Shown here piece after piece: positions 5,741 to 21,458 of a DNA stretch of 55,375 nucleotides. Position 1 is the first letter of the stretch. Each line of letters begins with the position of its first letter. The stretch spans positions 1 through 55,375 of the IMG/VR virus record IMGVR_UViG_3300008110_000371. One strand, given 5' to 3'. A model generated the notes under the pieces. That model was given only the letters and a program-made list of their open reading frames with translations. It had not been told where the DNA came from and did no database searches. Both the position numbers and the translations under genes were made by a program. The stretch is from a virus.

Positions 5741-7300
5741 CTATGGCGCGGAGGATGCAATGCCGTTATAGACCCACCGTTTTTTACCACAATCGTAGAT
5801 CCTTCTTGCACCCATCAAATAGGTCATCTCTGCCTCAGATCGTGGGTCAGTATCGGCGTCAAAAAAGTCTGTACTTCCATGTTCAATCAGACGTTTTTGA
5901 ATATTTTTACGCTGATAGTGGCTCTTGGGCCAAAGCCCCGTTTTTTGGCTCCAAACCTGATAGTCAGCGGGAATCTCTTCCTCAAGTTTAAAACCTAACT
6001 TCTCGTACATGCCTCCGTCAAAGTAACGATTGTCTGAGAAACTCTTAATCACCACGTCTCCATGGTCTTGCAAAAAGGCCCGAAACAGACGTGATGCAGC
6101 TCCCACTACGGTGATGCGTGTTGCAAATCGAGACAGTGTCCAAACCCGTTCCGTGGCCCCACGATCGTTGGCTCCAAAAGTAAACCGCATACACGCAACA
6201 AGCGCATCGCCATGGTAAAGACCGTAGTGAATGCCTGATCCATTGCCTCCTTGCGGATGGTAACGGTCATAAAACCTCCTGGCATCCAGTGAATCAACCT
6301 TGCGTAAAGCACACTTCCTTGCCATCAACCTGCCTTTGGACCTGCCAACAGCATTTCTAAGCAACCTTCGGACAGCGAACTCGTGTTCCTCCCATTCTGA
6401 CTCAAAGATAGTAATCAAACGGATACCAAGATCGCGACAATCTTGATGCTTTTGAACATGCTTACGCTTGTTTTCCAACTCGTCTTGGGCACTCTCATGG
6501 GAATGCCAATACATCCCGCAATATTCAACGGCCAGACGGTGTTCAGGTAGGTAAATATCAAGCTCCTTGCCTCCCAGTATCTTTCGGTTTCGGGTCTCAA
6601 CCGGTGTGAACATTGACAAAAAACGTCCGACTCTGTCTTCTTGTCTTGACAGTAAATGTCCACATTGTGGACACCCGTGGGCTCGCTTTAGGTGATGTTC
6701 CGCTGTTTGGGTAAAAACGCCATGCTCCTTGCAGTGAATCTCAAGTTTTGATCTCGCACCCAGGTAAACCGTACTACTGTAATCGTACCGATTTCCGTGG
6801 ACACCCAGAGCTTCCTCAACAAAGCGATCACCAAAGACTCGTTTTTTGGTGTCGGCGGTTTTCTTAGCGGCACTTGAGATGTTGAGTCTTTTTCCACGAC
6901 TCAAGGCACCACAAGACGGACACCCTTGCTTTTCGTATAAATGCTTAAGTGGTGTAATGAAAAAATCACCGTGATCCGCACAGGTCACGGTAATCTTAGT
7001 TGTCATGTTGACGTATTGTGTTTTTTCGTAGCCATAGCGACTGCGATGAGCCTCAGAAGCTCTTTCCGCAAACTCCACAGGATCCATCCGTCTGGATTGG
7101 ATACGCTTTTCTTCACCACATCGAGGGCATCCTGCTCCGTTTTTACGCAATTGTGCTGAATACTGTTGAAAGGGTCCGTGTTGAAAGCAGACGATTCCCG
7201 TTATAGGCTTAAGCGCAGAAACATAAATAGCTTGTGAAAAGTCGTAGCGCTGACGAACAGCGTCAGGAAATTTTGCAACAACTTGTTGAGTAGTAAGCAT
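5741..7300 (-). CDS. Free-standing homing endonuclease: DUF723-type zinc repeats plus Vsr-fold nuclease
   Basis: The 519-residue protein starts with three repeats of the DUF723 type, each with Cys-x-x-HG-x-F followed by CPxCG (around residues 38-61, 107-130, 190-213). These are likely zinc-binding DNA-recognition units. Residues about 240-310 have LDIYLPEHRLAVEYCGMYWH and IRLITIFESEWEE, resembling the Hef-like/Vsr-fold homing nucleases. The last third (RRFYDRYHPQGG, YGLYHGDALVACMRFTFG, VVIKSFSDNRYFDGG) is a GNAT-like domain often fused in this family. The gene has its own Shine-Dalgarno sequence AGGAGAG. It sits between the capsid terminator and tail genes, so it is an intergenic selfish element rather than a structural gene. 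Confidence 0.8.
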   Translation of the reverse strand: MLTTQQVVAKFPDAVRQRYDFSQAIYVSALKPITGIVCFQHGPFQQYSAQLRKNGAGCPRCGEEKRIQSRRMDPVEFAERASEAHRSRYGYEKTQYVNMTTKITVTCADHGDFFITPLKHLYEKQGCPSCGALSRGKRLNISSAAKKTADTKKRVFGDRFVEEALGVHGNRYDYSSTVYLGARSKLEIHCKEHGVFTQTAEHHLKRAHGCPQCGHLLSRQEDRVGRFLSMFTPVETRNRKILGGKELDIYLPEHRLAVEYCGMYWHSHESAQDELENKRKHVQKHQDCRDLGIRLITIFESEWEEHEFAVRRLLRNAVGRSKGRLMARKCALRKVDSLDARRFYDRYHPQGGNGSGIHYGLYHGDALVACMRFTFGANDRGATERVWTLSRFATRITVVGAASRLFRAFLQDHGDVVIKSFSDNRYFDGGMYEKLGFKLEEEIPADYQVWSQKTGLWPKSHYQRKNIQKRLIEHGSTDFFDADTDPRSEAEMTYLMGARRIYDCGKKRWVYNGIASSAP

Positions 7301-11271: not shown

Positions 11272-11532
11272 CTAGTAGATTTTCACAGGACGATTGCCGT
11301 CCTTTTTCTTGACCGTCATAAACGGACCTTGCACACCGGCAGGGGTGCTGCCAGCCTTGTACTTACGTGACTTGCCTGCGGCGCTGTAGGCAATGGCAGC
11401 GGCTTGCTTAATTGCTTCGCCCCTGTTTTTTGGCTTACTGGTTCCGATGGAACCCGTTTCCTTGTACTTCTTGATCATCTCGCCAATGTTGCCTGAGATG
11501 ACCTTCTGGCTCTTGCCTTGTTTAAGCGGCAT
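11272..11532 (-). CDS. DUF6496-like small protein (86 aa)
   Basis: The N-terminus MPLKQGKSQKVISGNIGEMI and the segment AIKQAAAIAYSAAGKSRKYK fit the DUF6496 pattern (MPLKxGxSQKxIxxNI and AxAIAxxxAGKSRK), a short family frequent in phages and some bacteria. Function is unknown. The start lies inside the 3' end of the portal gene (11-nt overlap), with GGAGAAG as ribosome-binding site. Confidence 0.7.
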   Translation of the reverse strand: MPLKQGKSQKVISGNIGEMIKKYKETGSIGTSKPKNRGEAIKQAAAIAYSAAGKSRKYKAGSTPAGVQGPFMTVKKKDGNRPVKIY

Positions 11533-13933
11533 TGCGACTTCTCCGTTGGTTGATCGCCTGCACCTGCTGTGCGCGGCGGGCGTTTTGATCCATCATGGCT
11601 GCGCGCTCGCGCGCAACCGTAGCACGCTCGGCAGCAATGCGCTCTTGCGATTGAATACGAGCCTGATTGGCTTGTTGATTGGCCTGCGTGCGCTGCTGCT
11701 CGACCAACAGACGCTGCCTGTCGATTTGCTGCTGGGCTTGGTCGTCTTGCGCACGGATCTGGAGCTCTTTTTCTTTGAGCAAGACCAACGGATCAGGTCC
11801 CTGGCCTTGATTACCCATCAACTGGTTCTGGAGATCGCGAATCTCTTGCATGTACATGGCAGTCTTTAGCGCAATCGACGCTTCACGCTGTAAATCAGAC
11901 ACCATGCGGTCAGGATCTTTGCCATAGGCCATAAAGAGCTCGGCCTCAGTCGCTTCTTCGGCCTTCAAGCGCACATGCTCAAGGATATGCTTTTGCAAAA
12001 TCATCGCGGCCATGGGCTGCGCCTGCAACATGGGCGATAAACCCATCATCAAGTGCGATGCGATGTGCGCATCATGCTGTTGCCCTGCAAAAGCCTTCAA
12101 TTCCATTGCATCCAGCACGTCACCGTTCTCCGTTGCCGGATCTTTTGGCATTTGTGTGCGCTGCGGCTTCAAAATGCTGTCGATATCGCGCACATTCATC
12201 GCGGTATAGACGCGATAGTAGGCCTCATAGAGGTTGTGCATCTGCGGTGCGGTCTGCGCCATCTGCAACTGCATCTGGGCAAGCGTCAAACGCTGTGCTG
12301 ACGAGAAAATATTGGGATCTGAGACCGGCTGGACGGCAACAAGGTTGTTGAAGTCCGCTTTTTTGATCTTTCTCGACGCTCCTGGCACGTCATAAGGGTA
12401 CTCATCTGGCAAATACATGCCAAAGCCCTCAGCCAGCAGCTGAAACTCCTCTTTTAGAGCGTAATGCAGCCGTTTATGGATGGCCGACATGACCTGCGTG
12501 CCGCGTTCAAGCAGTGCAAGCGTCGTTCCGACCTGCGCCATTTGGTTGCCCTCGCCAACTTGCATGTCGGCGATGCTGGCAAGACGTCTTCCGGCGTCTA
12601 CACAGAACCCAAGTAGGGCAAAAAGCGTCTGCGAAGGCTCTTTGTAGGGCAAAGGCAGCATGTTTTGCTGCAATTCCGCGCCACCTACGTCAATATCGCG
12701 CCATTCTCCAGGCTGAATCGGGTTGTCTTGGTCCGCGATCCGTGCGCCTTTGGCCTTGAACCCTGCTGGAAGGTTCGATAGGGTGCCTGCATCAAGCAAT
12801 TGACGCAGTGCAGCAGTGGCCGTTTTCGATAAACCACCAACCAAATGCACAAAACCCAAGCCATACGACCCAAGGCCCTCGATTAAGACGTAGTGAACGA
12901 AGTAATTGCGCCTGTTTTTGCGCTCATCGTCCTCTTTCCAATTGCGTTTGACCCCAATAACGCGCTTGGTCGCCTCATCAATCGTGATCACATAGGGCAA
13001 TTTGATGCCTGTTGGCTCGCCTTTGTCGTCCGTGTCCTCAAATCCAGGCAAATCGTAGTCCACCTGGAACTCAAGCAAGAAGATTTCTTCGGGCGCACCG
13101 GTTTCCACGACACCCGTTTGCTTATCCACCTGATAACGGATCTGGCTTGCATCCGATGGATAGAGCTCGCTTTCCACAATCACATCCAAATACTCGCCTG
13201 CGACCACGCGCTTGCGGTATTCGTTGGAGTCCATCGCAATACGATGCGTGATCCGTGGGCATTGGCTCATGACGCTTGATCCGTAGTACGGAATAAACAC
13301 GTCATCTGCCAGCACAAGCTTCGATACCATCCGATCTAGCTGGGCATCGAAGTAAACCTTCTTGAACACCGAGCCGCCATAGCCCAGATAGAACATCGCC
13401 TGATCAAACTCAGGCGTGTATTCCTTCATGACGGTCGTGATCTGGTAGTTCATGAAGTCCTGCACGCGGCCTGCCTGCTGGAACTTGTCTAACGTCTCTT
13501 TGCCCAGGATCTCCGTGCGCACAGGGCCGTTGGCGGGCATGAGCTCCTTGGTTGCTTGCGCTTGGAACTGGACCACAGCTTCCATGAGCAAGGGGTGAGT
13601 TGCCGCTGCCGCGCCTCTGAATGGCTTGGTGCGCTCCTCAAATCTCATGCCCAAGAGCTCAAGGCCCTTGGCATAGGTCTGTTCCCAATCGGAGCGGCTG
13701 GACTTATCGGCCTCGAAGAAGGCAGAAAGGTCAATGGCGATAGCCGATAACACGTCATCGTCCAGGACTTCTGCCAGATTGGCGTAGAAGTCAACATCAT
13801 CGCCTTCGTCTTCCCCGATCTCGATCGTCGCGCCACCATCCTCATCAAGGATGATCTCGATCTCGGGCGCATCACCCGACTCGATCTCGATCGAGGTCTG
13901 CGGGGCTTCGTAGAGGGCTTTGTCGATGGGCAT
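11522..13933 (-). CDS. Portal protein
   Basis: The 803-residue protein has an acidic N-terminal tail, then the portal-like core: WEQTYAKGLELLGMRFEERT, PFRGAAAATHPLLMEAVVQF, and QITTVMKEYTPEFDQAMFYL with the GYGGSVFKKVYFD strand. These are characteristic of the large portal family of podovirus-like phages. The C-terminus (about residues 690-800) is a long Gln/Arg/Ala coiled-coil region similar in idea to the P22 portal barrel. It forms the DNA entry channel and the docking site for terminase and adaptors. It lies directly downstream of the 1649-aa gene and TerL. Confidence 0.8.
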   Translation of the reverse strand: MPIDKALYEAPQTSIEIESGDAPEIEIILDEDGGATIEIGEDEGDDVDFYANLAEVLDDDVLSAIAIDLSAFFEADKSSRSDWEQTYAKGLELLGMRFEERTKPFRGAAAATHPLLMEAVVQFQAQATKELMPANGPVRTEILGKETLDKFQQAGRVQDFMNYQITTVMKEYTPEFDQAMFYLGYGGSVFKKVYFDAQLDRMVSKLVLADDVFIPYYGSSVMSQCPRITHRIAMDSNEYRKRVVAGEYLDVIVESELYPSDASQIRYQVDKQTGVVETGAPEEIFLLEFQVDYDLPGFEDTDDKGEPTGIKLPYVITIDEATKRVIGVKRNWKEDDERKNRRNYFVHYVLIEGLGSYGLGFVHLVGGLSKTATAALRQLLDAGTLSNLPAGFKAKGARIADQDNPIQPGEWRDIDVGGAELQQNMLPLPYKEPSQTLFALLGFCVDAGRRLASIADMQVGEGNQMAQVGTTLALLERGTQVMSAIHKRLHYALKEEFQLLAEGFGMYLPDEYPYDVPGASRKIKKADFNNLVAVQPVSDPNIFSSAQRLTLAQMQLQMAQTAPQMHNLYEAYYRVYTAMNVRDIDSILKPQRTQMPKDPATENGDVLDAMELKAFAGQQHDAHIASHLMMGLSPMLQAQPMAAMILQKHILEHVRLKAEEATEAELFMAYGKDPDRMVSDLQREASIALKTAMYMQEIRDLQNQLMGNQGQGPDPLVLLKEKELQIRAQDDQAQQQIDRQRLLVEQQRTQANQQANQARIQSQERIAAERATVARERAAMMDQNARRAQQVQAINQRRSRNAA

Positions 13934-13935
13934 GT

Positions 13936-16900
13936 CTAGGCCTTTTTGCGCTGGCTTACCTGCGCGAGTTTATCGAGTTGTTGCTTGGAAGTCGATGTTT
14001 CACGTGGAACATTGACGGGGCCGCCGTCCTGATAAGGAAAAGGCTCGCCTGTTAGTTTGCTGACAACATCCTTGTCTACGAAAGGTTTCTTAAGAAATAG
14101 ATTATTTGCTGTCAAAAGTTTCCTGAGCTCATCATCAGACAGGCCAGAAGGAAGCTTGCTTCTGCCTCCAAAATCAATGATGTTTTTGACCTCAACGCTT
14201 TTGACGTTTGGATCTTTTTGCGCCTCTTTAAATTCTTTACTGGTTTCAAAAAATTCATCCCACTGCTCGCCTTTGGCATCAAGCACAACCTTAGGCCTGC
14301 GAGTCAGGACAGGAATGATAAAGCCCCTGTCTCCTGAGTACGATTCTGCAATCGTTGGGCTTTCCGTTAACCAAACACCACCTTTGGTATTTGCTTTTGT
14401 GACATCCCTGTCTCCAGGTTGACGTGACACAGTGCCAGCACGACTCCATGGTCTACCTTGTTTAGCATCTCTTAGCGCTAGCTCAATGGCGTCAGGTCGT
14501 TTTTGATATTCATAAACCGCCTCAAGGTATTCGTACGTAGGAGGTTTCTCAAACCCTCCTCCAGGATCCTTCTTGCCACGCAACCACGTACGGTCAACAT
14601 CAATACCTTGTTCCTTAAGTCGGTTCATCAGTTCTTTGACTGAAAACTGTTCAGCCTCGGCAACATCAAGGCCTCTTCCCTTAAAGGCCGTGGAACCCCT
14701 TGCTTTGTCAAGCATGCCAAGAAGTCCCTTTCGGCCTATCATGCCAACAGCAGCCAGGGGCGTTGGAGTAGCCGCAATCCGATAGGCCTCTGTAGGATTT
14801 GTCTCATCGTACGGTCCCATACCAACAAGGGCACGCATGCCTTCACGAATGTCTTTGCGAACCTTTTCCGCATCCTCGTTTTTTTGGGGCAACTTGCCTC
14901 GGCGGTAACTTTCCTGTTGCGCCGTCTTCAAACGATTAAGCATGCGTTGAGACTCTGAACGCATCTCAGCGTTCTCATCGATCAACCTGCCTTCAGCATC
15001 AAGCTGGGGGACTTCTGCTGTGTTGGGCGATGCTGTTTCACGTGAAACATCACCGCCCTCCTGGAATCCAGGAGGAATGGGGGGAACAAGAGGATCCTCT
15101 AATCCGGAGGGCTCTTTATAGGAAATACCACCTGTTCTTCTAAAGGCTGCGTAAGGATCTACATTGCCTTCTGGAGTAAAACCGACATTGGTTTGAAATC
15201 GTGCAAGGGGCTGGTTTTCGATGATACTGCGAATGTTTTGGGCAATGTCTTGAACTTGACTACCCGTCTCGGGCTGCTTCAACATGGTTGCAAAAGCATT
15301 GGCGGTTTCGCCAACTTGCGTAGGTGTCACTCCCTCCAGGCCTTGTAACTGCTCCATGCCAAGCCGTAAAGAACCAAGCCCTGATTGGGGCACAAGGCTG
15401 GGAACATCTTGCAATGTGCGTAGGGTTGCTTCAAAAGAAGCAGGATCGTAAGCCTGCAAGTTGCGTAACGATTGGACTGGATCGATGTCGCCGGTAATTT
15501 GATCGACAGACATCGTATTAGCAAGCCTCTGGTTTAAAACATTGCTCTCTTGCAGAGCGATCAACTGATCAAGCGCGGTCAACTCAGGCGTGGACCTAAG
15601 TTGATTGCGATCAAAGCGGTCAATCATCTCAACAACGCCGGGGTCTGCAAAGCCTGCGCCAAGCCCTTTGTCGCTTAAGCCGGGAGTATAGTCAAGCGGA
15701 TTTGTGGGCGATGCTGTTCCACGTGAAACATCACCGCCCGACTGCTTTTTTATGAAATCCTCCGTGCTGGCTTCACCGCCCTTGCTAAAGAACGCCGTGG
15801 CATACGGGCTTTGCAACGCGCCCATTCCTAAAAGAGGCGACGTTCGCCCCTCCTTCCTGCCATAGGTATCAAAGTGATAAAGCTCGTAGTCCCTTAGCGT
15901 GGGGAACTTTGCTTTGTCCTCGGGCTTGAGCTTGGCATAGGCCGCAGCAATATCCGGGTACTGCTCCGAGTAGCTCTTAGGCGTCTGTTGCTCGGCCAGG
16001 GACGTAAGTGCTGCGCGGTTCCTGGCAAGGAAGGGATCAAACGCCGCTGCAAGATCCGAGGCAAACGCACTTTGCCCGTACTGGACACGCAAGGCGGGAT
16101 CGGCTTTGGTCGGGTCGTACTTTTGCTGCTCAATGTCCCTGAAGCGCAACTTATTTTGCAGCATGGGATCTTCGCCGCTCATCACAAAATCACGAAACGC
16201 CGCCGCTGCACTTGTGGGCGCTTGGGCCGGGAGGCTTTTATCACCAGCTGCTGCCCGTGCGTAAAGCTGCCTGAACTGGTTATCCAGCGTTGACCGATCC
16301 CGCGCAAACTGTTGGCTTGCCGACAAAGGCAAACGCATCTGGCCTGTGACCGGATCGACCATGACTCCCGGTACATCGCCAATGTTAAGCGGCGATCGTG
16401 GGCGGCTCGTGATGCCTGGAGGCGTCCACTTAAAAACATTCGTTCCCGTGGCAGGTGTGAGCTTGGCAGCAGGGCTGTAGTTATAACCCGTGATGCGACC
16501 GAAGCGATCATAGGTCGCGGTTCTCGGTGCAGAGGCCCTGAACTCGGTATCAAGCTGGGGGATTGCGACGCGCTCGCTCTGTGGAATAGCCTTTACGATC
16601 GCGGTGCTCGGATCAAGGCCCTCTTGTCCTGGGGTTAAGGCAGGGGGCGGTGCTTCGGGAGGCGGTGCTGTAGGTGGGACAAAAATATCCGTGAGCGGTG
16701 GCAGATCAGAGGGTGGTTGAAAAAGGAGGAGATCATTACCCTGTGCGCCCTTGATCGTATCATTGCCTTGGCCGCCCGCCACCGTCGTAATAACAGGAGG
16801 TGGTTTTTGATTGACGTCATAAAGATCATTCAAGAGCTGACTTGCCGTTTTACCCGTTGCACGGACTAAGTCCTGCTCATTAAAGCCGCCAATCCCTGTC

Positions 16901-18885
16901 TCTGGGTCGTAGGCTCCCAGCTGCTGTGTCAGCACATCACCCAGTTGCTCCCTGGTCATTTTCGCTGCAACCTGATCCTGGATAAAGTCCCGGATGTTTG
17001 CGGACATGCCTTCAAGACCACCGACACCACGGCCAGGGGCATCGGTTGCACCGATGTCAGGATTCAATAGCGCATGGACAGCGGCTCCCGAGTACTGCGT
17101 CCCGGCCAACGCGTCACGGACGTCCTTGTCCGAAATGCCATACTTCTCCATCTCGGCGCGCACTTCGGCAGCATTAAGGTCCGCACCTTGCGTATTGACA
17201 AAGTTTCGGATGTTTTCGTAGTACTTGGCAGCACCTATGCCACCTTCGCCCGTAGCGTACTTAAGTCCTGATGACACGTCGCCGCCGTCAGCAAACCGTT
17301 GCAGCATTTGTCGAGCTTTACTCTCCTCGTTCTTATCGACTGAACCGCCACTGGCAAAGCCAAAAGGCGCGAAAAAAGGACGCTCTTCTGTGTACCCAGG
17401 CATCCCTGGCTCTCCCTTAACGCCTTTAAGTCGTTTGCTCAAATTTTCATAAAGTTCTTGCATACGATCAACTTGCGTCTGGTAAGGGCTTGTGCGTGGA
17501 ATATCTTTAAGCAACGTCGTTGTGGGCACAGGTTGTGCAAAAGGCGTATCAGTTCTTTCGGTTCCTTGGCCGCTAACCTGTTGATAGGGCTGGAAACCAA
17601 AAAACGTATCATTAACACCTGGGGTGATACCTTGACTCTTTAACAACGAGCTGATGTTCTCACTAAATTTGGGCGAAAGGCGTTGTGCATCCCCCAGCAA
17701 GTCCTGTGCTCTGTAATTGCCCCCAACAAGAAAATTCCCTTTTTGGTCAACAATACCGCGCTCGACAAACCCTTTGGGGTCTCGAAGTGACACCACACCG
17801 TAACCTGTCGTAGGATCCCTGTAAACCGAATCCAGGACGTTGCCTTGTCCGTAATTTTGTTGATAAACCTTACTTTCCCATAGCTGCTGAGATGCTGGTG
17901 CTGCTTGTTCTGTTTGATAAGCACCCTGTGCTTCTTGCACCGCCGATGAAACCGGATCAAACAACTCAGGTCGCTGACGTTGCAGCATTTGATAGTTTGG
18001 GTTTTCTTTCATCAAGCGTTGAGCTTGATCAAACCATTCCATCTTATTTGGCGATAGCGCCTCTTCTTGCTGACGCAGTGCATTGACGCGCTGCAACATA
18101 CCCAAGGCCGTTACATCCTGTGATTTACGCAAACTATCCGCATAGGCTGCTTGTTCTTCAGGCGATAACCCCTGGGATACCCCTGGTATGGGTCGGTCAC
18201 TTCGATAAGCTTTTCCATCAGGACCCTTGACCATGAAGTAACGCTCACCCGTGGCTTCGTCCGTAAAAAGCTGGTTTGCCTCGCCGCCATCAGCAAAACG
18301 CTGCAACATGCGTCTTGCTTCACTTACCTCACCGCCTCCTGCCAACCGAACAAGACCAAAACGACCCTCTAGGGGAATCACATTTTGATTTCCACCAAAC
18401 CCGCCACCCATGCTTCCGTAACCGCTACCGTAAGGCGAGGGCTGCGAAAAAGTGCTACGCGTATTCGTATAAGGAGAGGAGGCACTTGATAAGGGTGATT
18501 GATTCAAAGGAATTGGAGCCGCTTGTTGTTGAAAAGGATTAACAGGTGCTGTCACGTTACCTTGGATCACGGCTCCAGGTCCAAGGGCATTTTGCATCTG
18601 TAAGCGCAGCTGTTGCTGTTGCTGTTGTTGTGCTGCCGCACGTCGAGCCAGAACCTCCTGGCCACTTTGTTCCTGGAACTGTTGGGCATAGGGCTGAATT
18701 GCCTGTTGAAAAGCAGCGGCTGCACCTTGGATGTCCTGCAAACTAAAAGGGCTATTGCCTCGCACAAAAGCATCGTTCAGCTCGCTGAACTGTTGGCTCA
18801 AGTTTGTAACGTTTGCATATGTCGGGTTAGCTGTAAAAAGCTGTGCAAAATTAGGCAGGGCAGTAGGGTTGCCGGACGTGCTCAT
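13936..18885 (-). CDS. Giant virion-associated protein (1649 aa) with GG repeats and ART-like C-terminal segment
   Basis: This very long, mostly low-complexity protein has a Gln-rich N-terminus. It carries at least six Gly-Gly motifs, including two copies of the 10-mer MLQRFADGGE/D preceded by AR(R/Q). It also has a RTX-like stretch (GGQGNDTIKGAQGNDLLLF). Near residues 1530-1600, VSRQPGDRDVTKANTKGG, VWLTESPTIAESYS and PVLTRRPKVVLDAKGEQWDE resemble fold elements of ADP-ribosyltransferase-like domains in phage polyvalent proteins; this is inference. An AAGGAGC Shine-Dalgarno sequence supports the start. It sits between TerL and portal. Three parS-consensus sites lie in its 3' half. Role unknown; an ejected or internal head protein is plausible. 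Confidence 0.65.
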   Translation of the reverse strand: MSTSGNPTALPNFAQLFTANPTYANVTNLSQQFSELNDAFVRGNSPFSLQDIQGAAAAFQQAIQPYAQQFQEQSGQEVLARRAAAQQQQQQQLRLQMQNALGPGAVIQGNVTAPVNPFQQQAAPIPLNQSPLSSASSPYTNTRSTFSQPSPYGSGYGSMGGGFGGNQNVIPLEGRFGLVRLAGGGEVSEARRMLQRFADGGEANQLFTDEATGERYFMVKGPDGKAYRSDRPIPGVSQGLSPEEQAAYADSLRKSQDVTALGMLQRVNALRQQEEALSPNKMEWFDQAQRLMKENPNYQMLQRQRPELFDPVSSAVQEAQGAYQTEQAAPASQQLWESKVYQQNYGQGNVLDSVYRDPTTGYGVVSLRDPKGFVERGIVDQKGNFLVGGNYRAQDLLGDAQRLSPKFSENISSLLKSQGITPGVNDTFFGFQPYQQVSGQGTERTDTPFAQPVPTTTLLKDIPRTSPYQTQVDRMQELYENLSKRLKGVKGEPGMPGYTEERPFFAPFGFASGGSVDKNEESKARQMLQRFADGGDVSSGLKYATGEGGIGAAKYYENIRNFVNTQGADLNAAEVRAEMEKYGISDKDVRDALAGTQYSGAAVHALLNPDIGATDAPGRGVGGLEGMSANIRDFIQDQVAAKMTREQLGDVLTQQLGAYDPETGIGGFNEQDLVRATGKTASQLLNDLYDVNQKPPPVITTVAGGQGNDTIKGAQGNDLLLFQPPSDLPPLTDIFVPPTAPPPEAPPPALTPGQEGLDPSTAIVKAIPQSERVAIPQLDTEFRASAPRTATYDRFGRITGYNYSPAAKLTPATGTNVFKWTPPGITSRPRSPLNIGDVPGVMVDPVTGQMRLPLSASQQFARDRSTLDNQFRQLYARAAAGDKSLPAQAPTSAAAAFRDFVMSGEDPMLQNKLRFRDIEQQKYDPTKADPALRVQYGQSAFASDLAAAFDPFLARNRAALTSLAEQQTPKSYSEQYPDIAAAYAKLKPEDKAKFPTLRDYELYHFDTYGRKEGRTSPLLGMGALQSPYATAFFSKGGEASTEDFIKKQSGGDVSRGTASPTNPLDYTPGLSDKGLGAGFADPGVVEMIDRFDRNQLRSTPELTALDQLIALQESNVLNQRLANTMSVDQITGDIDPVQSLRNLQAYDPASFEATLRTLQDVPSLVPQSGLGSLRLGMEQLQGLEGVTPTQVGETANAFATMLKQPETGSQVQDIAQNIRSIIENQPLARFQTNVGFTPEGNVDPYAAFRRTGGISYKEPSGLEDPLVPPIPPGFQEGGDVSRETASPNTAEVPQLDAEGRLIDENAEMRSESQRMLNRLKTAQQESYRRGKLPQKNEDAEKVRKDIREGMRALVGMGPYDETNPTEAYRIAATPTPLAAVGMIGRKGLLGMLDKARGSTAFKGRGLDVAEAEQFSVKELMNRLKEQGIDVDRTWLRGKKDPGGGFEKPPTYEYLEAVYEYQKRPDAIELALRDAKQGRPWSRAGTVSRQPGDRDVTKANTKGGVWLTESPTIAESYSGDRGFIIPVLTRRPKVVLDAKGEQWDEFFETSKEFKEAQKDPNVKSVEVKNIIDFGGRSKLPSGLSDDELRKLLTANNLFLKKPFVDKDVVSKLTGEPFPYQDGGPVNVPRETSTSKQQLDKLAQVSQRKKA
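13996..14011. promoter_or_regulatory. parS-like site A
   Basis: TGTTTCACGTGGAACA matches the bacterial chromosomal parS consensus TGTTNCACGTGAAACA when read on the minus strand (TGTTCCACGTGAAACA). It lies in the coding sequence of the 1649-aa protein near its C-terminus, encoding V-P-R-E-T. ParB/Spo0J proteins of most bacteria bind this 16-mer; binding here is untested. Confidence 0.75.
15034..15049. promoter_or_regulatory. parS-like site B (perfect palindrome)
   Basis: TGTTTCACGTGAAACA is the perfect palindromic form of the parS consensus. It is the centre of a 34-bp imperfect palindrome (15025-15058) whose 17-bp arms match at 15 positions. It encodes V-S-R-E-T within a GG motif repeat of the 1649-aa gene. 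Confidence 0.8.
15715..15730. promoter_or_regulatory. parS-like site C
   Basis: TGTTCCACGTGAAACA is an exact parS consensus match. The surrounding 34 bp (15706-15739) are identical to those of site B except for one base. It encodes V-S-R-G-T. It is 681 bp from site B and about 1.7 kb from site A. Confidence 0.8.
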
Positions 18886-18917
18886 CGCTGCTCCTTATTC
18901 ATGGGGCGATTATCAGC

Positions 18918-18965
18918 CTAATAATACTCAAACTCAAGCTGTGTTGAAGACCCGATGCAAAAGCA
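18918..18965 (-). pseudogene. Remnant of a second terL 3' end
   Basis: Directly after the terL stop codon, in the same frame, the minus strand reads C-F-C-I-G-S then STQLEFEYY and a stop at 18918-18920. The intact TerL ends with the same nine residues, STQLEFEYY. Most codons in the two copies use different synonymous bases, so this is not a fresh tandem copy but an older or foreign allele end. It is too short to be a gene. It is best explained as a scar of recombination or allele replacement at terL. Confidence 0.75.
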
Positions 18966-21458
18966 TCAGTAGTACTCAAATTCCAATTGCGTTGATGGCT
19001 CATCGGCCTCATCGTCGTCCAACGCAACAAAGTTCCCGGCCCTGAACCGGCTGATGGCCTGCACGGTGCTATCGACCAAGTCATCATTATCGCCCTTGGG
19101 GAAAGCGGCACACTCCTCAATCAACTCCTCTGCCCACTTCGTTTGTGGTGCCCAGACCATCCCCGACTCAAACACGGGTGCAACAGCATTCGCGCGGGCG
19201 ATCTTATCCTGATTCTTCTTCCTGCCTCCCGGTGCATAAGTCGTCACAGGAATGCCCACGCGCCGAAGCTCCTGCTGCAAACTCGTCCCCGTGGCCTTGG
19301 CCTCGATCAACACATTATCCGGTCGCCAGTGATCGTACTGGGCCTTAGCTACCCTTTTGAGTTCCGGAAAGTCCCAACGGCCTTTTTTAACATCGAGGAG
19401 AATAATGGCAGGTCCGTCGTCTGCGCTGGGACGGAATACACCCCAGGTGGTGATGGCTGAAAAGTCAGCTGTCTCCTTCTTGCTGTATGCAGTGTCATAG
19501 CTCTGGATAACATATTCAACTTCGGGGGTGTAATCATTTTCCCAGATCCTCCACCAGTCACGCTTTAAAATCGCCCCCTCATCATTGGTGGGCTGCTGCT
19601 GATACATCGACTGCCACTTCTGCACCGACAACGTCGCCCGGACCTTTTGCAACTCATCAAGGCTCCAGTAGCTTGGCCAAAGGGGCTTTTCGTCCTCGGT
19701 ATGCTCATTCAATATCGCCGGAAACTCAATCACTTCCCACTGATCCGACTTCGGCTCCGCTTGCGACCTGATCAACCGTGCCGTCAGATCCTTCATCCCC
19801 CAGCGGGTCATCACAACCACCACCGCCCCTCCGGGTTGCAAACGTGACCGAGGGCCCGAGGTGTACCACTCCCAGGCATTATCCAAAGCAAGCTCTGACA
19901 AAGCGTCCTGTTCGGAATGCGGATCGTCAATAATCAAAAGATCCGCACCGCGCCCTGTCATCGCACCCCCCACACCCACTGCGTAATACTCCCCGCCACC
20001 ATTGGTGTCCCACCGACCAGCAGCCTTTGAATCCGCCTTCAAACTCACCGCCGGAAACAAAGCCTTGTAGTTGTCCTGATCCATCAAGTTACGAACCTTT
20101 CTGCCAAAGCGCACCGCTAACTCGCCGTTGTGCGTGGCTTGAATGATCTTGGACCTTGGCTCACGGCCCATGGCAAAGGCAGGCAAGAGGTAGGACGCAA
20201 ACTCACTTTTCGTGTTATGCGTACACAGATACCCGTCCCCCGCTAAAAACAACCCGTCCCCTCGATCAACCTTGATGCATTGTGTATCGCCTGTCTCATG
20301 AAGCCTTTCTACGGTAATGTATCGGCCAAAGGTCCGCTCGCCCGTCAAAAGACGTTCACGCTTTTTAGGCAACAAACAACAATCACTGTGGTAAAACGAC
20401 ACACGCCACGTTAGGCCATACGACTTGTCACCAATCTTGGCCTCTGACTCAAGCACCGAGGCCTTTGTGCCAAGGCTTCGAATTAACTGCGCAACATCCT
20501 GCGCCATGCGCCAATCGCTTTGAGCAAAAGAACACTGTCCCTTCTTGCTTACACACCCGTCCGTATCCATTAACCCACGCAACAAATCAAGACGTTGTGT
20601 CACCGATCCAAGCATATAAACCTCTGGGATATGCTTATTGCCAAGAACGCCCAGCTCTTTAAGCTTTACTTGAAGGTCAAGCGTGCCGAAGGTTTTCCGT
20701 GTCGCTTGATCCGTGGTTCTTGTTCCACGGCGCTCAAACTCCTGGCGCAAAAACACCCTGTTCTTATCATCCGCCGTAATAATCCCTGAGTTTTTCGAAC
20801 CATCCCCAAGCCATACACCCAGTACATACGGGTCAACCAAAAGGTCTTTTTCCTCGTACTGAACAGGTTTCACATCTGGCAGTCTTGGCAGTCGAACGTC
20901 TATCGCTCGCTTACCCTTCAAAAACTCTGTCTTACCACCACGCGTCTTTCTCAAGACCTCACCATGCTGCCTTCGCCACAACTCCTCCGTGGTGTAGTCA
21001 TGATAAATCCCGTGCTTTCGATCAAGCCTCACGGTCCACAGATGCTCGCCATCCACAACTAACGATGCACCATCGTCGGACGTCACACGATAAAGCGTTC
21101 TGCCACGGAATACCTCTGATTTTCCAATGACTTTGGCGGGCGAGCCATCGACCGAGAACACCGAATCACCGACCTGGAGCTCGGCCATGGTCTTCCACCC
21201 TTGTGTCGTCGGTATCTTCATACTAGTCATTATAGCATGACGTGGAGGCATATTCACGATCAAGCGCTTTAACTCACCATTGATGATGCGGTCAAAGGCG
21301 TTGGCCATGCGACTGTGATGGGCGCTGAAGATCGCCTCCGGCCAAACATAACGAGCAAAGTCCAAGAAAGACTGAGTGCTCTTTTCTTGAGCATCAAGGA
21401 TCCTGAGCCTTAGCTCAAGGCGCAGTTTCTCGGCTTCAACGTCGGCGGGAAGGGTCAT
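18966..21458 (-). CDS. terL: Terminase large subunit interrupted by an intein
   Basis: The host protein packages DNA: an N-terminal ATPase and a C-terminal RNase H-like nuclease. Numbering from the ATG at 21458, the P-loop region VNMPPRH is split by the intein (residues about 75-415) and continues TKSEFASYLLPAFAMG. Walker B is LLIIDDPHS (about 507-515), the coupling motif is MTRWG (about 550), and nuclease acidic residues lie in QSYDTAYSKKETADFSAI (about 653-668), LIEAK (about 717) and GDNDDLVDS (about 789-797). Extein length is about 489 residues, normal for the family. A TTG at 21476 would add six residues; no clear Shine-Dalgarno sequence favours either. It is followed by a remnant of a second terL end. 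Confidence 0.9.
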   Translation of the reverse strand: MTLPADVEAEKLRLELRLRILDAQEKSTQSFLDFARYVWPEAIFSAHHSRMANAFDRIINGELKRLIVNMPPRHAIMTSMKIPTTQGWKTMAELQVGDSVFSVDGSPAKVIGKSEVFRGRTLYRVTSDDGASLVVDGEHLWTVRLDRKHGIYHDYTTEELWRRQHGEVLRKTRGGKTEFLKGKRAIDVRLPRLPDVKPVQYEEKDLLVDPYVLGVWLGDGSKNSGIITADDKNRVFLRQEFERRGTRTTDQATRKTFGTLDLQVKLKELGVLGNKHIPEVYMLGSVTQRLDLLRGLMDTDGCVSKKGQCSFAQSDWRMAQDVAQLIRSLGTKASVLESEAKIGDKSYGLTWRVSFYHSDCCLLPKKRERLLTGERTFGRYITVERLHETGDTQCIKVDRGDGLFLAGDGYLCTHNTKSEFASYLLPAFAMGREPRSKIIQATHNGELAVRFGRKVRNLMDQDNYKALFPAVSLKADSKAAGRWDTNGGGEYYAVGVGGAMTGRGADLLIIDDPHSEQDALSELALDNAWEWYTSGPRSRLQPGGAVVVVMTRWGMKDLTARLIRSQAEPKSDQWEVIEFPAILNEHTEDEKPLWPSYWSLDELQKVRATLSVQKWQSMYQQQPTNDEGAILKRDWWRIWENDYTPEVEYVIQSYDTAYSKKETADFSAITTWGVFRPSADDGPAIILLDVKKGRWDFPELKRVAKAQYDHWRPDNVLIEAKATGTSLQQELRRVGIPVTTYAPGGRKKNQDKIARANAVAPVFESGMVWAPQTKWAEELIEECAAFPKGDNDDLVDSTVQAISRFRAGNFVALDDDEADEPSTQLEFEYY
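20214..21236 (-). mobile_element. Class 3-like intein with LAGLIDADG (DOD) endonuclease in TerL
   Basis: The 341-residue element begins with Ala after PPRH and ends GYLCTHN before Thr of the extein. The first residue is not a nucleophile, and the three residues that define class 3 inteins are all present: Trp in block B (DGEHLWTV, intein residue 67), Cys in block F (DTQCIKVD, residue 320) and Thr before the terminal His-Asn (residue 339). Splicing would then start at the block F Cys. Two LAGLIDADG-type helices, YVLGVWLGDG (about 137-146) and LLRGLMDTDG (218-227), form the homing endonuclease. The insertion splits the ATP-binding loop, the usual conserved-site choice for inteins. Confidence 0.88.

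Follow-up and report, generated by a model that had tools for sequence, protein, structure and literature searches.

Why should a terminase gene be followed at once by a second copy of its own last codons? The window, by which we mean the whole 55,375-base virus record analyzed here, carries a terL gene on its minus strand that begins with ATG at 21458, ends in DEPSTQLEFEYY and stops with TGA at 18968–18966. Past that stop the frame continues for 15 codons, C F C I G S S T Q L E F E Y Y, to a TAG (18965–18918, minus strand), and the last nine residues are again those of the gene end. A preliminary description took this ghost tail for the end of another terL allele and tentatively connected it with homing of the intein that terL carries. 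The elements concerned are:

18966..21458, minus strand: terL, 830 codons including the intein (open reading frame with Pfam Terminase_6N/6C and LAGLIDADG matches)
20214..21236, minus strand: 341-aa intein flanked by NMPPRH and TKSEF (limits set by how much shorter terL is in relatives that lack it; LAGLIDADG homing-endonuclease matches in Pfam)
18969..18995, minus strand: true terL tail STQLEFEYY, with Leu codon TTG and a stop without a nearby −10 (sequence, family comparison)
18948..18965, minus strand: 18-nt spacer TGCTTTTGCATCGGGTCT between the terL stop and the ghost tail (sequence)
18918..18947, minus strand: ghost terL tail STQLEFEYY plus TAG, the TAG at 18920–18918 (sequence; same as the normal ends of L002 and L092)

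Results

The spacer behind the terL TGA consists of the codons TGC TTT TGC ATC GGG TCT, and after it STQLEFEYY and a stop are repeated in frame. The true tail is written tca acg caa ttg gaa ttt gag tac tac and the ghost tca aca cag ctt gag ttt gag tat tat tag; 20 of 27 nucleotides are identical and all mismatches are synonymous. When the 80 nt downstream were shuffled 5000 times with dinucleotides preserved, the best match to the true tail was 19/27 and 20 was never reached, which confirms the duplication with synonymous codons that had been described from this sequence.

From two terL scans and pattern scans of viral contigs we obtained readable terL ends at 182 loci, of which 100 were distinct. 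The nearest named phage was DSL-LC04 (75.8% over the extein C-terminal part of terL), and HTVC023P-type pelagiphages came next in terL similarity at about 57–60%. The insert seen in the window, with a spacer of 18, 40 or 42 nt, recurs in other metagenomes (L006, L004, L007/L009, L008, L020, L065 and L090) and is therefore not an assembly artefact. Base for base, the ghost equals the normal terL ends of two relatives (L002 and L092) over all 27 nt of coding sequence, the TAG and GCTGATAAT, which bears out its identification as the tail of another terL allele. Carriers form a single clade on the terL tree (support 0.96), with the ghost-less L002 and L003 nested inside it, and these two look like collapses between the two tail repeats. 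Ghosts also arose independently in L010 and L215/L231, with different spacers and each time on the promoter side (see below), and there the ghost matches the locus's own tail at 26/28 (L010) and 24/28 (L215) positions. The long spacer was confined to four ghost loci of the collection and the short one to ghost loci; the 18-nt spacer of the window looks like a shortened version of the spacer of about 40 nt in L008 and L090. A 17-mer scan of bacterial genomes for the origin of the spacer returned 46 scattered matches, about chance level for that length. Folding of the spacer gave z-scores of −1.8 to 0, none significant, and no Rfam match, and there is no tRNA in the window.

Beyond the coding copy, the ghost contains part of a predicted promoter:

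18932..18937, minus strand: predicted −35 hexamer, TTGAGT, within the ghost copy (promoter match; family conservation)
18909..18914, minus strand: predicted −10 hexamer GATAAT at 17-nt spacing from the −35 (promoter match; homology with L004 and L008 ends directly after it)

With a sigma70-type layout taken as a −35 of TTGNNN and a −10 like TANAAT, 16–18 nt apart, the window has TTGAGT-17-GATAAT. In the family layout the TTG is formed by terL codon −6 (CTT or GTT) together with the G of the next codon, and the −10 sits 2–4 nt past the stop. A −10-like [TGC]ANAAT was present within 14 nt of the terL stop in 77 of the 100 distinct loci, compared with 1.8% of control windows inside terL, and 76 of these 77 had TTG 16, 17 or 18 nt upstream of it, compared with 4.8% of control positions, these percentages being non-independent tests because the relatives share ancestry. 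The sole locus with the −10 but without TTG (L061) is left out of the 73-sequence alignment of terL ends. There, codon −6 was CTT or GTT in 73/73 sequences and in 42/42 clusters (<90% nucleotide identity), against background use of CTT for 12.6% of Leu and GTT for 18.8% of Val codons; since the aligned set was selected for TTG, weight rests on the 76/77 count and on the contrast between columns. Of the 33 Leu/Val columns contrasted, codon −6 alone never varies at its third base (always T; median share 0.66), and conservation of the DNA at this codon exceeds what the protein needs. Because the residue switches between Leu and Val while its third base is fixed, and the adjoining Tyr codons alternate between TAT and TAC, the constraint acts on the DNA. 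We infer that the terL 3′ end in this family bears a predicted, presumably active, sigma70-like promoter for the next gene. A scan of the window alone, with 8 promoter-like matches against 14.0 expected, was not above chance and would not single out the ghost promoter, so the case rests on comparison among relatives. No such promoter was found at the terL end of L026, L049 or HTVC023P (L153), and L169 and L175 had a weak −10 only. The named phage DSL-LC04 has TTGTGC...TAGAAT at the end of its terL. A non-exhaustive literature search covering terminase-gene promoters, phage module boundaries, regulatory cassettes and related phages turned up no description of a terL-end promoter.

At some ends the two roles have come apart. 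The true stop has no −10 behind it, and the commonest Leu codon, TTG, occupies position −6, in the window and in L004, L005, L006, L008, L065, L069, L083 and L090; among ends without a −10 after the stop, TTG at this codon was frequent (9/23). The ghost keeps TTGAGT-17-GATAAT in the window, L004 and L006, and in L008 an identical TTGAGT is paired with CATAAT. Other relatives whose stop lacks a −10 have a predicted replacement promoter, either TTGCGC-18-GATAAT, provided by an unrelated short insert (L003, L011, L013 and L069), or TTGACC-18-TATAGT (L021 and L083). These ends suggest that the promoter can be lost from the terL end once another copy takes over. In L007, L009, L065 and L090 a further insert parts the ghost from the −10, and the ghost there is probably a pure relic. 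A short insert (CGCTTGCGCGCCTCGCCTTGCTAAGGCGATAAT and variants) stands in place of the promoter part behind the terL stop in L003, L005, L011, L013 and L069, and one of the same type occurs behind the ghost in L007, L065 and L090.

The predicted promoter faces a gene that differs greatly among relatives:

13936..18885, minus strand: downstream gene, a hypervariable mosaic of 1649 aa that separates terL from portal (comparison of relatives; weak ART-PolyVal match below cut-off)
11522..13933, minus strand: portal gene (PHROG 1216, E 2e-32)

For the downstream gene of the window no convincing match came from Pfam or PHROGs, and with few exceptions the matches of its counterparts were weak. The match of the 1649-aa protein to the ADP-ribosyltransferase of polyvalent proteins was weak and below cut-off, related proteins repeat a motif like ARxMLQxFADGG, and the gene at the counterpart position in DSL-LC04 is labeled a 'PcfJ-like protein'. 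Counted from the last terL base, homology of the window ends at +61 with L004 and at +62 with L008, which is the end of GATAAT, and past that point the sequences are divergent until about +633. With L002, L003 and L005, homology ends at the terL stop. Clean tails, ghost tails and other promoter tails share the same downstream leaders in several combinations. From these breakpoints and shared leaders, the downstream side is exchanged around the −10 and the tail side at the stop. The earlier suggestion that incoming terL alleles land on a conserved 3′ end reads better when recast: terL itself stays, and its end is the junction where the downstream gene changes. Leaders also differ in small elements. 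Many relatives (L002, L003, L004, L007, L014, L017 and L063) have a palindrome, CCCTGGCCAGGG, possibly an operator or RNA element, after the −10 and ahead of the start codon; it is absent from the window leader. In L215/L231 an inverted repeat, GAGTATTGATATACTC, lies about 10 nt past the −10, downstream of the ghost.

Discussion

The terL ends compared here have a conserved layout, a codon constraint and its relaxation, recurrence of the ghost, and homology that breaks off at either the stop or the −10. The reading we favor, with a probability of roughly 0.74, is that the ghost is a recombination scar retained as the predicted promoter of the swapped next gene. The last codons of terL would overlap a sigma70-type promoter driving that gene. 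In the lineage of the window, recombination or duplication at the gene end would have left a second terL tail upstream together with a short spacer; most likely a terL with its own end recombined onto a neighbor's terL tail, promoter and downstream gene, giving two tails. The proximal tail would now serve as coding end only and would have drifted to other synonymous codons, and the distal tail, the ghost, would be noncoding and kept because it supplies the −35 half of the swapped gene's promoter. The ghost thus survives most likely because the last terL codons double as promoter of an often-swapped neighbor. The preliminary description set its allele-exchange reading against a functional element, unrelated to such exchange, in all relatives. 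This counter-finding is half borne out: where present, the ghost appears to act as such an element, the promoter, but it is carried only by some relatives.

That description had also proposed that exchange or repair of terL alleles after intein homing left the tail of the old allele behind. The LAGLIDADG homing-endonuclease matches of the intein and the identity of the ghost with other terL alleles would suit such an origin, but ghost and intein occur independently, the intein lies some 1.2 kb from the terL end, and ghost-like ends with different spacers are found in L010 and L215 also. The ghost is present without the intein in L007, L008 and L009 and the intein without the ghost in L002, L003, L005 and L011, and relatives with the intein and relatives lacking it (L007, L008, L012 and others) are intermixed. 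Uncoupled in this way, an origin by homing was dropped from consideration and we regard it as very unlikely. The intein itself begins with Ala and ends in ...CTHN before Thr, and we presume that it may fit a class 3 intein. Elsewhere in the window, at 5741–7300 on the minus strand, a 519-aa protein with HNH and homing endonuclease family matches is encoded directly downstream of a major head protein gene. Programmed read-through of the TGA, producing TerL with a second tail, is extremely improbable. It would require the ghost to lie in frame, which it does in the window, L004, L006, L007 and L215 but not in L008, L020, L090 and L010, and L065 has an additional stop before it; the family moreover uses three different stop codons at the terL end. 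The open frame through the terL stop is not a conserved feature, and a read-through extension was likewise set aside.

Two other explanations concern how the second tail was made. A neutral event, in which slippage or unequal crossing-over doubled the gene end in tandem and the upstream copy then drifted with no promoter role, would account for ghosts close to their own tails, as in L215 and L010, and for L002 and L003, which look like repeat collapses inside the ghost clade. Left unexplained are the promoter hexamers staying on the distal copy, the loss of the CTT codon in the proximal copy only and the homology break exactly behind the −10, and as a full explanation we consider it unlikely. 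An origin by tandem duplication with later drift would look much the same, and the ghosts in L215 and L010 may have arisen that way. In the window the ghost would rather have come in with the promoter or downstream module of a donor. Alternatively, a small mobile element could have inserted itself at the end of terL, made the gene whole again by supplying a recoded tail, and later been lost. A recoded proximal tail, a displaced native tail and a foreign spacer do resemble the outcome of gene-end integration, but a full element was not seen and the long spacer occurs only in the four ghost loci noted above, making such a footprint highly doubtful.

A scar retained as a promoter may be one instance of something more general, to which we would give slightly less than an even chance: that in phages of this family the terL tail, together with the promoter it contains, is a lasting site of exchange, where the large variable gene between terL and portal is replaced time and again through recombination at terL-tail/promoter sequence. 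Ghosts would then be its footprints, one sequence with two jobs split into two copies with one job each, with later collapse possible. The scar reading explains, concretely and testably, how phages with mosaic genomes can swap a gene beside an essential one without breaking it, and more than once here a dual-use sequence of codons and promoter has come to be divided between two copies. Caution is also in order, as conserved C-termini of phage proteins may reflect a DNA signal within the codons.

The nearest known ideas are PeSL-type cassettes and 'semilegitimate' recombination. PeSL, according to Arbiol et al. 2010, are reportedly mobile regulatory cassettes of T4-type phages, short promoter-bearing segments at the boundaries of shuffled genes. 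The terL end likewise has a short promoter-bearing segment at the boundary of shuffled genes, with breaks directly after GATAAT and leaders shared across tails. It differs in that the predicted promoter is embedded in the last codons of an essential gene, and swaps therefore duplicate the gene tail; nor was a stem-loop of the PeSL type found at the terL end, where RNA folds were not significant and had no Rfam match. Such promoter-bearing regulatory cassettes of T4-type phages are cited in PMC4177764, where 'semilegitimate' recombination denotes exchange guided by short conserved intergenic regulatory signals. In both cases a short conserved regulatory sequence between genes guides the exchange, but the signal at the terL end is partly coding, and exchange consequently leaves a readable ghost tail. 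When islands or satellites integrate at a gene end, a diverged copy restores that end and the displaced tail is left behind. The terL end similarly shows a diverged copy and a displaced tail, but neither an element nor an att site was found at the locus and the insert is only 18–42 nt. In compact phage genomes promoters may overlap the end of the upstream gene and lie inside coding sequence, as the predicted terL-end promoter does; what differs here is that the coding and promoter roles visibly part onto two copies.
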